DNA of 32,129 bases from a virus: positions 1 to 32,129 of the IMG/VR virus record IMGVR_UViG_3300007770_000056, one strand, 5' to 3'. Below the pieces are notes generated by a model, which worked only from the letters and a program-made list of their open reading frames with translations, searched no databases and was not told where the DNA came from. A program made the position numbers and the translations under genes. Below, piece after piece: positions 11,444-27,994 of this stretch. Every line of letters starts with the position of its first letter. Within the stretch, counting starts at the first letter, position 1.

Positions 11444-11479
11444 CTAACTCGTAACCCGTAACGTGCAACTCGCAACTCG
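11444..11479. repeat. Interspersed repeat of CGTAACCCGTAAC/CAACTCG units, copy 1
   Basis: Made of imperfect AACTCGTAAC, CCGTAACGTG and CAACTCG units directly after the capsid stop. Related strings occur at 15125-15150 and 23926-23959. No coding role is apparent. Confidence 0.65.
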
Positions 11480-15104: not shown

Positions 15105-15124
15105 AATTTTTTACTCCCTTTTAA

Positions 15125-15182
15125 ACTCGTAGCCTGCAACTCGTAACACGAGCCCCGTCATCCTGAGCGGAGTCGAAGGATC
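15125..15182. repeat. Composite interspersed repeat: CAACTCGTAAC units plus TCATCCTGAGCGGAGTCGAAGGA
   Basis: The left half repeats the units seen at 11444-11479 and 23926-23959. The right half is TCATCCTGAGCGGAGTCGAAGGA written on the plus strand at about 15158-15180, a string widely seen between genes of many unrelated bacteria. It separates the protease from the 106-aa gene. Confidence 0.65.
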
Positions 15183-20895: not shown

Positions 20896-21069
20896 TTATA
20901 TAACCTCCTCAAAGCAAATCTCCCTATCTGTAGCGTTAAAGACCGCAACTATCAACTCAGACTGCACATTATTGCCTATATCCTCACAAGCAGCTTTGAA
21001 TTTCCGTATAGCAAGCTCAAGATCCTGCCTCGCTTCATTAAATTTCTTATACTTCAAAGGATCACTCAT
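20896..21069 (-). CDS. Small helical early protein
   Basis: 57 aa from the ATG at 21069, chosen because GGAGGGTTTTTT lies just before it; the same GGAGGGTTTTTTATGAGT start context precedes the gene at 25016. One long charged helix (DPLKYKKFNEARQDLELAIR) is followed by a hydrophobic segment and ends FEEVI. The longer frame to 21201 runs through palindromic leader sequence and is not credible. Function unknown. Confidence 0.65.
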   Translation of the reverse strand: MSDPLKYKKFNEARQDLELAIRKFKAACEDIGNNVQSELIVAVFNATDREICFEEVI

Positions 21070-21239
21070 AAAAAACCCTCCGTTCTTGTAGGTCCCGCGA
21101 TCGCCCTGGCGATCACCTCCCGGTGATCCGCACAGATCCTCGCGTAACGTAAACCTTTTAAAAACCTGCCACGCTTGCGAAAAAGCGCACTCGATTCGCA
21201 CCCGTGTAGCTTGTACCTGCCAAAGTACCTTTTTGTTTA
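21070..21239 (-). other. Structured non-coding leader with two overlapping palindromes
   Basis: This gap has no convincing gene. Two perfect inverted repeats overlap by GATC: GATCGCC-CT-GGCGATC (21099-21114) and GATCACC-TCCC-GGTGATC (21111-21128). A third weak hairpin, CGCTT-AAGCG, lies near 21170-21186, and GGTAC occurs twice near 21225-21239 on the minus strand. It could be operator or RNA structure before the 57-aa gene. Confidence 0.5.
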
Positions 21240-23751: not shown

Positions 23752-23961
23752 TCATGTATTCCCCAAAACCTTCCACACAACATAAGCAAAATAACCACAA
23801 CAACCGCTTAATAAAGCTACAGCCCCATAAAAACAAAACCACTCTTTACCTTTGCGCTCTCCTTGTCCTCGGCGCCTTTGTGGCTCCGTGTGAGTACTCA
23901 ATCCCTTAATCCCTCTTTTCTTGACCCGTAACGTGTAACCTGCAACTCGTAACCCGTTCAA
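23752..23961 (-). CDS. Doubtful small membrane ORF extended by repeats
   Basis: A 69-codon frame. Its first ~39 codons are the translation of interspersed repeats (NGLRVAGYTLRV comes from the CGTAAC units; EPQRRRGQGERKGK from the CGGCG-type unit). Only the last part, WFCFYGAVALLSGCCGYFAY and VVWKVLGNT, looks like a real one-helix membrane peptide, and it has no good start of its own. It is probably the remnant of a small membrane gene whose 5' end was overwritten by repeats, or a chance frame. Confidence 0.3.
   Translation of the reverse strand: MNGLRVAGYTLRVKKRGIKGLSTHTEPQRRRGQGERKGKEWFCFYGAVALLSGCCGYFAYVVWKVLGNT
23848..23896. repeat. Interspersed repeat of the CTTTGCG-CGGCG type, copy 2
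   Basis: CTTTGCGCTCTCCTTGTCCT, CGGCGCCTTTGTGGCTCCGT and GTGAG follow one another here. The CTTGTCCTCGGCGCC core is identical to copy 1. Confidence 0.7.
23926..23959. repeat. Interspersed repeat of CCGTAAC/CAACTCG units, copy 3
   Basis: CCCGTAACGTGTAACCTGCA is followed by ACTCGTAACCCG. The units match those at 11444-11479 and 15125-15150. It abuts the stop of the 103-aa gene at 23958. Confidence 0.65.
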
Positions 23962-24294: not shown

Positions 24295-24546
24295 TCAATC
24301 CCAGCACTCTATCTCTGCCTCTGCCATCTGTTCAGGAGTTTTATCTTGCAAGCCTTCCTCTGGATCGCTCCAGTACTCCCATGATGCCTTTGCATACACC
24401 TCCAGATCTCCTTCTATGTACTCAATGGCCGCATTTGTCAGGTTCTCGGCAATATTTCCAAGATTCTCATTGAAATCAATAGCCTGCTCTCCGATAATCT
24501 CTACCATTCGTCTGATAAAGCGCGTTTTATACTCTTTGTATTCCAT
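24295..24546 (-). CDS. Small early protein carrying a 24-residue insert copied from the tail tip gene
   Basis: 83 aa. The N-terminus (MEYKEYKTRFIRRMVEIIGE) and the acidic end (VYAKASWEYWSDPEEG, PEQMAEAEIECWD) resemble a small phage early family with an EYA--YW-DP and C-term -A-Y/CW ending. Between them, about residues 22-45 (IDFNENLGNIAENLTNAAIE and onward) come from a 72-bp exact copy of the tail tip gene, a multiple of three that keeps frame. The insert would lengthen the middle helix. The start overlaps the previous gene region closely (2-nt gap). The function of the family is unknown. Confidence 0.75.
   Translation of the reverse strand: MEYKEYKTRFIRRMVEIIGEQAIDFNENLGNIAENLTNAAIEYIEGDLEVYAKASWEYWSDPEEGLQDKTPEQMAEAEIECWD
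24411..24482. repeat. 72-bp repeat, copy B (inside small early gene)
   Basis: Base-for-base identical to 1980-2051 and in the same orientation, 22,431 bp away. It encodes the same peptide in the same frame within the 83-aa gene. The absence of any silent difference indicates a recent event or continued gene conversion. Confidence 0.95.
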
Positions 24547-24785: not shown

Positions 24786-25016
24786 CTCCCCTGTTGCAAA
24801 CACAACTTGCAGACCCTTCCACTCCCTGAACTCGCTGTCCCTAGCCTCGGTAAACCTTGTCGCCTCCTCAGCAAGCTCCTCTTTAGCGATCCTCGCCACT
24901 GCGTTGTCATGCACCTTCACGGCGCCGCGCGTACACAAGAACCCGATACCGGCAAAGAACGCTACCGCAAGGCAAAACTGAACAATATCCCACGCAACCC
25001 ATAAAGATTTACTCAT
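24783..25016 (-). CDS. Small membrane-anchored coiled-coil protein
   Basis: 77 aa. One membrane helix at ~9-30 (DIVQFCLAVAFFAGIGFLC), then a charged helix (VARIAKEELAEEATRFTEAR). GGGGAGGGTTTTTT precedes the ATG. The stop falls within an interspersed repeat. Possibly a superinfection-exclusion or lysis-timing type membrane protein, but nothing specific supports that. Confidence 0.65.
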   Translation of the reverse strand: MSKSLWVAWDIVQFCLAVAFFAGIGFLCTRGAVKVHDNAVARIAKEELAEEATRFTEARDSEFREWKGLQVVFATGE

Positions 25017-25050
25017 AAAAAACCCTCCCCAAGAAAAGAAAAAAACACCA

Positions 25051-25852: not shown

Positions 25853-26206
25853 CTATTCCCTCTCCGCCACCTGCTTCAACGCCTCCAGCAGCGCCATACC
25901 CGACTCAATATCCTCCATCATCTCCCGGTGTATCTCTTTGTATTCCTGCTTGTCTACCTTCTCGTCCTCAAGTGCGGCAGAAACCTTCTGGCACGTCTCG
26001 CCAAACTCCTTTGTCCATACCAGTAGTGCCTTATTGATCCCTGAGTTGCTAGTCACCCTCGGCAACCGGAACGGTTTCGACAACCCGTTCTGAGCACAAA
26101 GCCAGAGTATAGGTATATGCGCGCGTTCCGGGTCCTTCTTTTCAATAGCGTCGATAATCACCTGAATACGGTCCAGCCTTACCATCATTCTTAATCTTAC
26201 TTTCAT
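25853..26206 (-). CDS. CII-like phage regulatory protein
   Basis: 117 aa from the ATG at 26206; ATG codons at 26188 and 26185 are equally possible. LDRIQVIIDAIEKKDPERAH and IPILWLCAQNGLSKPF form the DNA-binding part seen in the phage CII (CP76-like) regulators. The C-terminal helix pair (VWTKEFGETCQKVSAALEDE and KEIHREMMEDIESGMALLEA) is the typical second domain. Such proteins activate lysogenic promoters or control early genes. It stands at the left boundary of an AT-rich insert. Confidence 0.6.
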   Translation of the reverse strand: MKVRLRMMVRLDRIQVIIDAIEKKDPERAHIPILWLCAQNGLSKPFRLPRVTSNSGINKALLVWTKEFGETCQKVSAALEDEKVDKQEYKEIHREMMEDIESGMALLEALKQVAERE

Positions 26207-26276
26207 CAAAATCTTTATCTTGCTCTAAATCTATATCTTCAGTCCAATCATCAGTCATGTTTTGGTTTATGCTCAT
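26142..26276 (-). CDS. Small acidic ORF overlapping the CII-like gene
   Basis: 44 aa, very acidic (DDWTEDIDLEQDKDFDESKI), ending SGDYRRY. It overlaps the start of the CII-like gene by ~65 nt in another frame and the end of the 48-aa gene by 26 nt. An internal ATG (residue 7) is an alternative start. The ribosome site is weak. It may be a real overlapping gene or a chance frame. Confidence 0.4.
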   Translation of the reverse strand: MSINQNMTDDWTEDIDLEQDKDFDESKIKNDGKAGPYSGDYRRY

Positions 26277-26397
26277 GTTGTTTTAGCCTTTCTTCTAATG
26301 TTTTAATCTTATCATCAAGTTTATTTATTTTATAGTGACCAGTGCGATTAACCACAAACAATGCAACAGTTATTAAATAAACTAAGGCAAAAATCAT
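26251..26397 (-). CDS. Small membrane protein with coiled-coil tail
   Basis: 48 aa: MIFALVYLITVALFVVNRTG is a membrane helix; KLDDKIKTLEERLKQHEHKP is a coiled coil. The ATG follows the methyltransferase stop immediately (TGAATG). Strongly AT-rich, like the methyltransferase, so probably part of the same acquired cassette. It might anchor a partner at the membrane, but there is no direct evidence. Confidence 0.65.
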   Translation of the reverse strand: MIFALVYLITVALFVVNRTGHYKINKLDDKIKTLEERLKQHEHKPKHD

Positions 26398-27387
26398 TCA
26401 TATCCCCAGCCCTTCCTGTCTCAACCTAGCATCATTAACAATATTTTGACAATGCTCACTATCTATCTCACTTCCTACAAACCTTCTATTTAACCTTTTA
26501 CATGCAAATAGAGTAGCACCAGACCCTGTAAAAGGATCAAAAACAATATCACCAACATTAGTACATGATTCAATTATCCTACATAACAATGCTACTGGTT
26601 TTTCAGTAGGATGGTTAGAAGGAGGGACTCTATCAAACTTCCACACGTTTGAATGTCTATACCCTTTTAATTTAAAATCTTTTTTTGGTATAAACGCAAT
26701 ACATTCATATTGATTGCCAAAATCCCCTTCAAGATTACCAGCAGTCCAATTATTCTTAACCCATATTATTCTATTGCGAATTCGAGTCAAATGAGGTTTT
26801 TGCTTTTCAAATTCCTTTACATTTTCATCAATAGCATGCATAGTTTGACTTATCATAGAGGTTATTTCCCCTTTACTAGCCCCACAACCTCTTAATTTAT
26901 CTAACATTGCTCCCATATGCATATACATTTTACTATGATTATCTCTCAACATTTCAATTTCACGTTCATCAGGATCATCTAATTCTATTTTATGACTATA
27001 AAAACTCCACAAACTTCCCGTATCTCTTAATAAATCCCAAAACATATCAATGTTCATATATAACACATCATCATTCTGAATATCTTTTAACTTTTCTTTT
27101 CTATGGTTAGATAAATAATTAATACCATATGGAGGGTCTGTTAATATCAAATCAATACTATTACCGTTTAACTCCCTTACTACATCATTCATGTCGTTAT
27201 TAAACAATGTTATATTCCCATCCTCATAATACGGCTCTAAATGCTCATAAGTCTCCGGGTAGTCACCGCCATGATCCGCGAAAACCGCTTCGCACTCTAT
27301 ACCCTGTTTTTTCAATAAGATCATGTGCGCTGTCGAATTCACCCCGCCGCCATAAGACAAATATTTCTTGATTTGTTTCCCGCTCAT
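26398..27387 (-). CDS. Chimeric protein: PAPS-reductase-type N-terminus fused to a DNA methyltransferase
   Basis: 329 aa from the ATG at 27387, which has AAGGAGA 8 nt upstream. Residues 1-50 read as the start of a PAPS reductase/ATP-pyrophosphatase fold: YLSYGGGVNSTAHMILLKKQ (P-loop-like SGG motif with GGGxNS) and VFADHGGDYPETYEHL. From about residue 57 it is a beta-class amino-methyltransferase: LTDPPYGINY (motif IV, 82-91), NHPTEKP (258-264), then FDPFTGSGATLF (motif I, 283-294). The rest of the PAPS reductase is missing. A helical stretch at ~135-200 may be a target recognition insert. GC content drops at the join. Methylation of adenine is likely from DPPY. Confidence 0.85.
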   Translation of the reverse strand: MSGKQIKKYLSYGGGVNSTAHMILLKKQGIECEAVFADHGGDYPETYEHLEPYYEDGNITLFNNDMNDVVRELNGNSIDLILTDPPYGINYLSNHRKEKLKDIQNDDVLYMNIDMFWDLLRDTGSLWSFYSHKIELDDPDEREIEMLRDNHSKMYMHMGAMLDKLRGCGASKGEITSMISQTMHAIDENVKEFEKQKPHLTRIRNRIIWVKNNWTAGNLEGDFGNQYECIAFIPKKDFKLKGYRHSNVWKFDRVPPSNHPTEKPVALLCRIIESCTNVGDIVFDPFTGSGATLFACKRLNRRFVGSEIDSEHCQNIVNDARLRQEGLGI

Positions 27388-27406
27388 TTGCATCTCTCCT
27401 TTGTTA

Positions 27407-27994
27407 TTAATTTTTTGACATTGCAAAAACTTCACACTCTAACTTCGCCACAGCCAGTACTGATGGTTTCAGTTCTTCGGGTACATCTTTATAGCCGTAT
27501 CTGTTTAGATGCATATGTACCTGCGTGCTCACTAATACTAAATTCTCTAAATGATAATTGCTTGGATTGCTGTCTTTGAACCTCAATACATGACCGTCTG
27601 GTATTTTGCCGTGAGCCTGTTCCCAAACAACGATGTGCTTGTATTGCCAGGTACTCGGTTCAGCAGTTTTAATTAGCACCCTGCCATCTGCATGGGGGGC
27701 TACCTCAGATCCTACAGGTTTTCTCCTTAGCGACTTGTCTCCTTTTTTAAAGCTGCCTTTATTTGCCTTACATACACCCTTGCCCTTAGTATCGGTATTC
27801 CAGGACCTGTTCCCTTTCTTATAGCGAGCGCTTCTGCCAGTGAGCCATCCACGCCTTATGCGAAATTGCTTTATTGCCTCATTGGTTTTGTCAGTTCCAA
27901 ACTTTCTATTAAAAATCTCAACAAGTCTGGCGGGTTCGAGAGCCCTGTTATCGTAAATAAATATCTCTTGCTTTTTTGTGTAACGGTTATACAT
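27407..27994 (-). CDS. HNH endonuclease
   Basis: 195 aa. N-terminal DNA-binding helices (TKKQEIFIYDNRALEPARLV, then NEAIKQFRIRRGWLTG), a basic Gly/Lys-rich middle, and an HNH_3-type nuclease core: YKHIVVWEQAHGKIPDGHVL (118-137; His120, His135) followed by FKDSNPSNYHLENLVLVS (139-156; Asn151). Freestanding HNH genes spread among phages as homing endonucleases or assist packaging. It lies beside the chimeric methyltransferase and may have helped move that cassette. Its start lacks a clear ribosome site. Confidence 0.85.
   Translation of the reverse strand: MYNRYTKKQEIFIYDNRALEPARLVEIFNRKFGTDKTNEAIKQFRIRRGWLTGRSARYKKGNRSWNTDTKGKGVCKANKGSFKKGDKSLRRKPVGSEVAPHADGRVLIKTAEPSTWQYKHIVVWEQAHGKIPDGHVLRFKDSNPSNYHLENLVLVSTQVHMHLNRYGYKDVPEELKPSVLAVAKLECEVFAMSKN

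Follow-up and report, generated by a model that had tools for sequence, protein, structure and literature searches.

The window analyzed here is an entire IMG/VR virus record (32129 bases) of a phage that its terminase identifies as lambda-type tailed (phrog_15, E=7e-243); one end carries repressor-like and CII-like genes. On its minus strand lies a composite ORF of 329 aa (26398-27387), in which the head of a PAPS-reductase-type protein continues in frame into a beta-class DNA methyltransferase. PHROGs places residues 7-51 in phrog_424 (PAPS reductase; E=1e-8), and phrog_67 (DNA methyltransferase; E=1.7e-52) accounts for residues 47-318. Thus two adjoining significant matches, together with the alignments of both families, define a composite gene drawn from two unrelated families; by profiles and alignments, the joint is continuous in neither. 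The ATG start sits behind AAAGGAGAGATGCAA, and the ribosome-binding region aaaggagagatgcaa (27388-27402, minus strand; located by inspection), originally that of the reductase gene, would now serve the methyltransferase. Just upstream of the reductase start is an HNH endonuclease gene (27407-27994, minus strand; PF13392, E=2.9e-15; phrog_1891).

The reductase remnant (27216-27387, minus strand), delimited by phrog_424 and by identity to the intact 233-aa phage reductase of contig L020, comprises residues 1 to ~51-57 including the start codon. Identity to the L020 protein is 70% over residues 5-51 (47 residues), and identity to three other intact phage reductases is 53-57%; in all four, the match to the head ends at residue 48-51 (the intact phage reductases compared are 231-252 aa long). 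The Pfam PAPS_reduct match on the ORF is weak and below the cut-off (E=0.025), because the head stretch is so short. The GGGxNS loop and the DHGGDYPET motif are unmutated and the N-terminal reductase features are present. Phage PAPS-reductase-type proteins (PF01507/phrog_424), among them those of L020 and of Planktothrix phage PaV-LD, have the same residues 1 to ~51 with both motifs; however, their remaining three quarters are missing from the window ORF. The longest reductase alignments into the fusion reach residue ~60-64 at most, and they extend that far since two strands, ITIL of the reductase and ITLF of the methyltransferase, stand at equal spacing in the alignment; judging from this spacing, the graft could be less arbitrary than its appearance. 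The whole alpha-hydrolase-like domain with its C-terminal half is not present, therefore the ORF was not filed as a reductase. Phages carry PAPS-reductase-type genes, and such genes also occur in defence linked to phosphorothioation (PMC11437467, PMC12839542).

The methyltransferase part (26401-27215, minus strand) was delimited by the PF01555 match (residues 78-316) and by alignment to 13 relatives. The PF01555 (N6_N4_Mtase) match is strong and nearly complete (E=5.8e-31; 108.6 bits versus a cut-off of 26.7; profile positions 1-219 of 221), and DPPY (motif IV, residues ~84-87) stands ahead of FDPFTGSG (motif I, residues ~285-292), as in the beta class. Phage orphan methylase relatives are 31-42% identical to this part, and its model matches M1.HpyAVI, CcrM and M.BceJIV in the PDB, with which the sequence search agrees. 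The DPPY-before-FxGxG order and the full core fold are held in common with these beta-class enzymes (PF01555/phrog_67); in contrast to them, the window protein adds a foreign reductase head of ~50 aa. It also carries a helical insertion of ~60 aa (26796-26980, minus strand), which is lacking in all 13 aligned relatives and which the model shows as a pair of long helices (block mean pLDDT 61-86). The sole phage match of the insertion was a weak one (E=8e-3), to the Srd anti-sigma factor of Acinetobacter phage Acj9. From its DPPY motif, the methyltransferase probably targets N6-adenine. The stand-alone methyltransferases that were aligned start at the graft point, give or take a few residues.

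The sequence-only reading had proposed this two-part ORF, a PAPS-reductase-type start followed by a beta-class methyltransferase, and had further held that the rest of the reductase domain is absent. The phrog_424 and PF01555 matches bear out the former, while the loss of reductase similarity past residue ~60-64 and the lack of any C-terminal piece nearby bear out the latter. Short N-terminal extensions do occur in some methyltransferases (those of L006 and L017), so that the reductase resemblance might be coincidental and the N-terminus a normal one in some methyltransferase subfamily. Such a coincidence is extremely improbable, given the phrog_424 match, the 70% identity to a true reductase and a step in GC content at the boundary. 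Moreover, a whole-protein search of viral contigs for the same layout returned 18 methyltransferases, none of which matched the head before residue 43. Many homologues sharing the N-terminus as part of the methyltransferase fold, which the earlier reading had named as grounds for refutation, were thus looked for and none was seen (0/18 relatives): the resemblance is not a matter of chance.

Searches for further proteins with the two-part layout, which that reading had also suggested, yielded no second case in viral contigs or genomes. Searching phage genomes with the head revealed no other protein of this layout; a search based on the reductase alignment (viral contigs, 18 loci; genomes, one locus) recovered three truncated copies and no methyltransferase fusion. 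A limited literature search yielded no description of a comparable reductase-methyltransferase fusion. The truncated phrog_424-family reductases were cut at other points: at residue ~42 in L056, ~70 in L055 and ~175 in L053. Such differences among phages suggest an often-broken accessory gene, not a conserved head module or domain. In L056 (773-2602), an HNH gene, a truncated reductase head (a 59-aa ORF) and an N6_N4 (PF01555) methyltransferase gene follow each other in the order of the window, yet unfused. Homing by the adjacent HNH endonuclease was considered and set aside: an HNH gene precedes the reductase stub in both phages, but the two HNH proteins match different Pfam HNH families.

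The head could nevertheless be a functional add-on that the methyltransferase has co-opted, for instance for dimerisation, targeting or nucleotide-sensing. The open frame, the intact GGGxNS loop and DHGGDYPET motif, and the position of the truncated L056 head, a separate ORF directly before an N6_N4 methyltransferase gene, are consistent with this idea; however, the remainder of the alpha-hydrolase/PAPS-reductase domain is missing, no further fusion was found and the truncation points vary between phages. Structure prediction of the N-terminus, another step that the sequence-only reading had named, also argues against it. The fusion was modelled by AlphaFold2 from an alignment with both reductase and methyltransferase rows (only 27 sequences), and an intact reductase with a 14-row alignment served as control. 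In the fusion model, residues 1-53 had no strand and block mean pLDDT of 34-72, while blocks of the methyltransferase core reached pLDDT of 84-95. In contrast, the equivalent region of the control folded as strand-helix-strand-helix-strand with pLDDT of 83-94. Thus, as modelled, the head in the fusion is mostly unstructured and the methyltransferase core well folded. A working role of the head is therefore very unlikely. We give equally little credence to the broader proposal that the stub was co-opted as a working N-terminal element and that a stub beside a methyltransferase, seen in the window and separately in L056, is a recurrent selected arrangement and not debris. Were the head to work after all, it would amount to a novel means of modifying a DNA methylase.

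The base composition of the locus delimits a replacement block. The best two GC change points in a two-change-point fit fall at 27216 (2-lnL interval 27162-27257) and 26178 (26132-26193), and enclose ~1.04 kb of AT-rich DNA (26178-27216; 31% GC) between flanks of 43% GC upstream and 53% GC downstream. No other 1-kb stretch of the window is as low in GC as the block, and the window mean outside the block is 47% (sd 3.5%). The sharp GC step noticed in the initial reading was hence confirmed, with its change point at the very place of the protein scar in the reductase; the second change point likewise coincides with a scar, in a phage regulator. At this far edge lies the C-terminal remnant of a CII/YmfL-like regulator (25853-26185, minus strand), a second truncation that the initial reading had missed, recognized by three independent profiles that are covered at their ends only: PF06892 at positions 85-145 of 146, phrog_101 at 81-164 of 203 and NF041471 at 80-141 of 143. 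Positions 1 to ~80 of the CII-like profile (PF06892), i.e., its N-terminal part, are not matched in this ORF. In the CII-like regulator family, the N-terminal part bears the DNA-binding helix-turn-helix.

Since the far edge of the block cuts the CII-like regulator, the event was a two-sided substitution and not a clean insertion: the block took the place of the reductase's last three quarters, the regulator's beginning and anything that lay between. Besides the methyltransferase, the block holds a small ORF of 48 aa (26251-26397, minus strand), with a hydrophobic segment, a coiled-coil-like tail and only weak PHROG matches. A small acidic ORF of 44 aa (26142-26276, minus strand; no PHROG match) spans the right-hand scar. 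An intron-like insertion was rejected, there being no reductase C-terminus beyond the block. No convincing direct or inverted repeats, the mark of a transposon or site-specific cassette, were found at the two block edges, and blastn against phage genomes detected no DNA-level donor of the block.

Relatives of the phage place the site in a variable slot. Five contigs match parts of the window at >99% identity, but all of them end at or before 25628 (some at 24411), and searches via the terminase, HNH, CII and flanking genes revealed no relative covering the site beyond 25628 except the distant L029. The L029 terminase is 89% identical, and its HNH gene and downstream genes keep the order they have in the window; between them, however, L029 holds other content, without reductase, methyltransferase or CII tail. 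Therefore the site is a variable slot. No close relative was found whose reductase or regulator is intact at the site, as the near-identical contigs end before it and L029 differs; thus the event is reconstructed, not observed. The genome-contig search found no host.

Since the record is a metagenomic contig, an AT-rich block from another phage could have been joined in error during assembly or amplification. That the junction, as an exact 30-mer, has no match in other IMG/VR contigs and that the near-identical contigs stop at 24411 or 25628 would fit such a chimera. Yet this explanation needs two wrong joins ~1 kb apart, blastn finds nothing similar to the block in phage records, and the slot is variable in L029 as well. 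Furthermore, joins without a long common overlap are an atypical error for k-mer assemblers, which counts against a chimera. An artefact is consequently unlikely, though somewhat less so than a working head.

Illegitimate recombination in a variable accessory slot, which left the methyltransferase on the start of a dead reductase and the reductase head as a passenger, is very probably the explanation of the locus. In the proposed sequence of events, the DNA between the inside of a PAPS-reductase-type gene (~codon 51-57) and the inside of a CII-like regulator gene would have been swapped out in a temperate-type phage. The incoming DNA would have been ~1.04 kb of AT-rich sequence that brought a beta-class methyltransferase gene along with one or two very small ORFs. 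In the exchange this gene may have lost its own start codon; joined in frame, it would instead depend for translation on the ATG and the strong ribosome site left by the dead reductase gene. The frame at the joint would be open by chance in one of three cases anyway and is no proof of translation. Like its relatives, the enzyme is predicted to methylate DNA of the phage or its host, and most plausibly it either shields the phage against restriction or works as an orphan methylase. The head from the reductase would then be an inert N-terminal tail and the regulator remnant a fossil. This explanation retains much of the simpler of two proposals in the sequence-only reading, namely that an AT-rich cassette bearing a methyltransferase inserted into a reductase gene and captured the gene's start and ribosome site. 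The capture is supported, while the insertion was in fact a replacement, in that the regulator's N-terminus is gone. The other proposal, a functional fusion of the nucleotide-binding tip to a methyltransferase, found no backing: no second such protein exists among those searched, the head is unstructured in the model, and the cut points vary among phages.

Composite genes in viruses are established, and mosaic phage genes were surveyed by Jachiet et al. 2014 (PMC4202312); mosaicism of phage genomes is attributed to illegitimate recombination in a review (PMC9262239). Like the composite genes of that survey, the window gene is one frame from two unrelated families, lies in an accessory region and is of atypical composition on one side. 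In contrast to them, the far scar is visible too, and both scars lie within genes and not at gene or domain boundaries. The window gene is thus a real composite of a familiar kind, a product of ordinary phage mosaicism with both of its scars in view. As an example of how an accessory slot is rewritten, it illustrates that a single swap can kill two genes and lend a start codon to the newcomer. For annotators it carries a warning: a PAPS-reductase match on a methyltransferase, even a significant one, can be a scar.

Several repeated sequences were observed elsewhere in the window. Positions 24411-24486 and 1980-2055 are identical at 75 of 76 bases; the copy at 24411-24486 represents a 69-bp in-frame insertion from a tail gene into a small ORF, is absent in the near-identical contig L026, and lies at the exact end of contig L024. 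This tail-gene copy is another non-homologous event in this phage, and it speaks for the proposed recombination. A 27-base sequence of the type AACTCGTAACCTGCAACTCGTAACCCG occurs in three dispersed copies (11453-11479, 15124-15150 and 23930-23956), which are 81-85% identical to the reference. The translation-start region GGAGGGTTTTTTATGAGT occurs twice, at 21056-21081 and 25003-25028, ahead of two different small genes.
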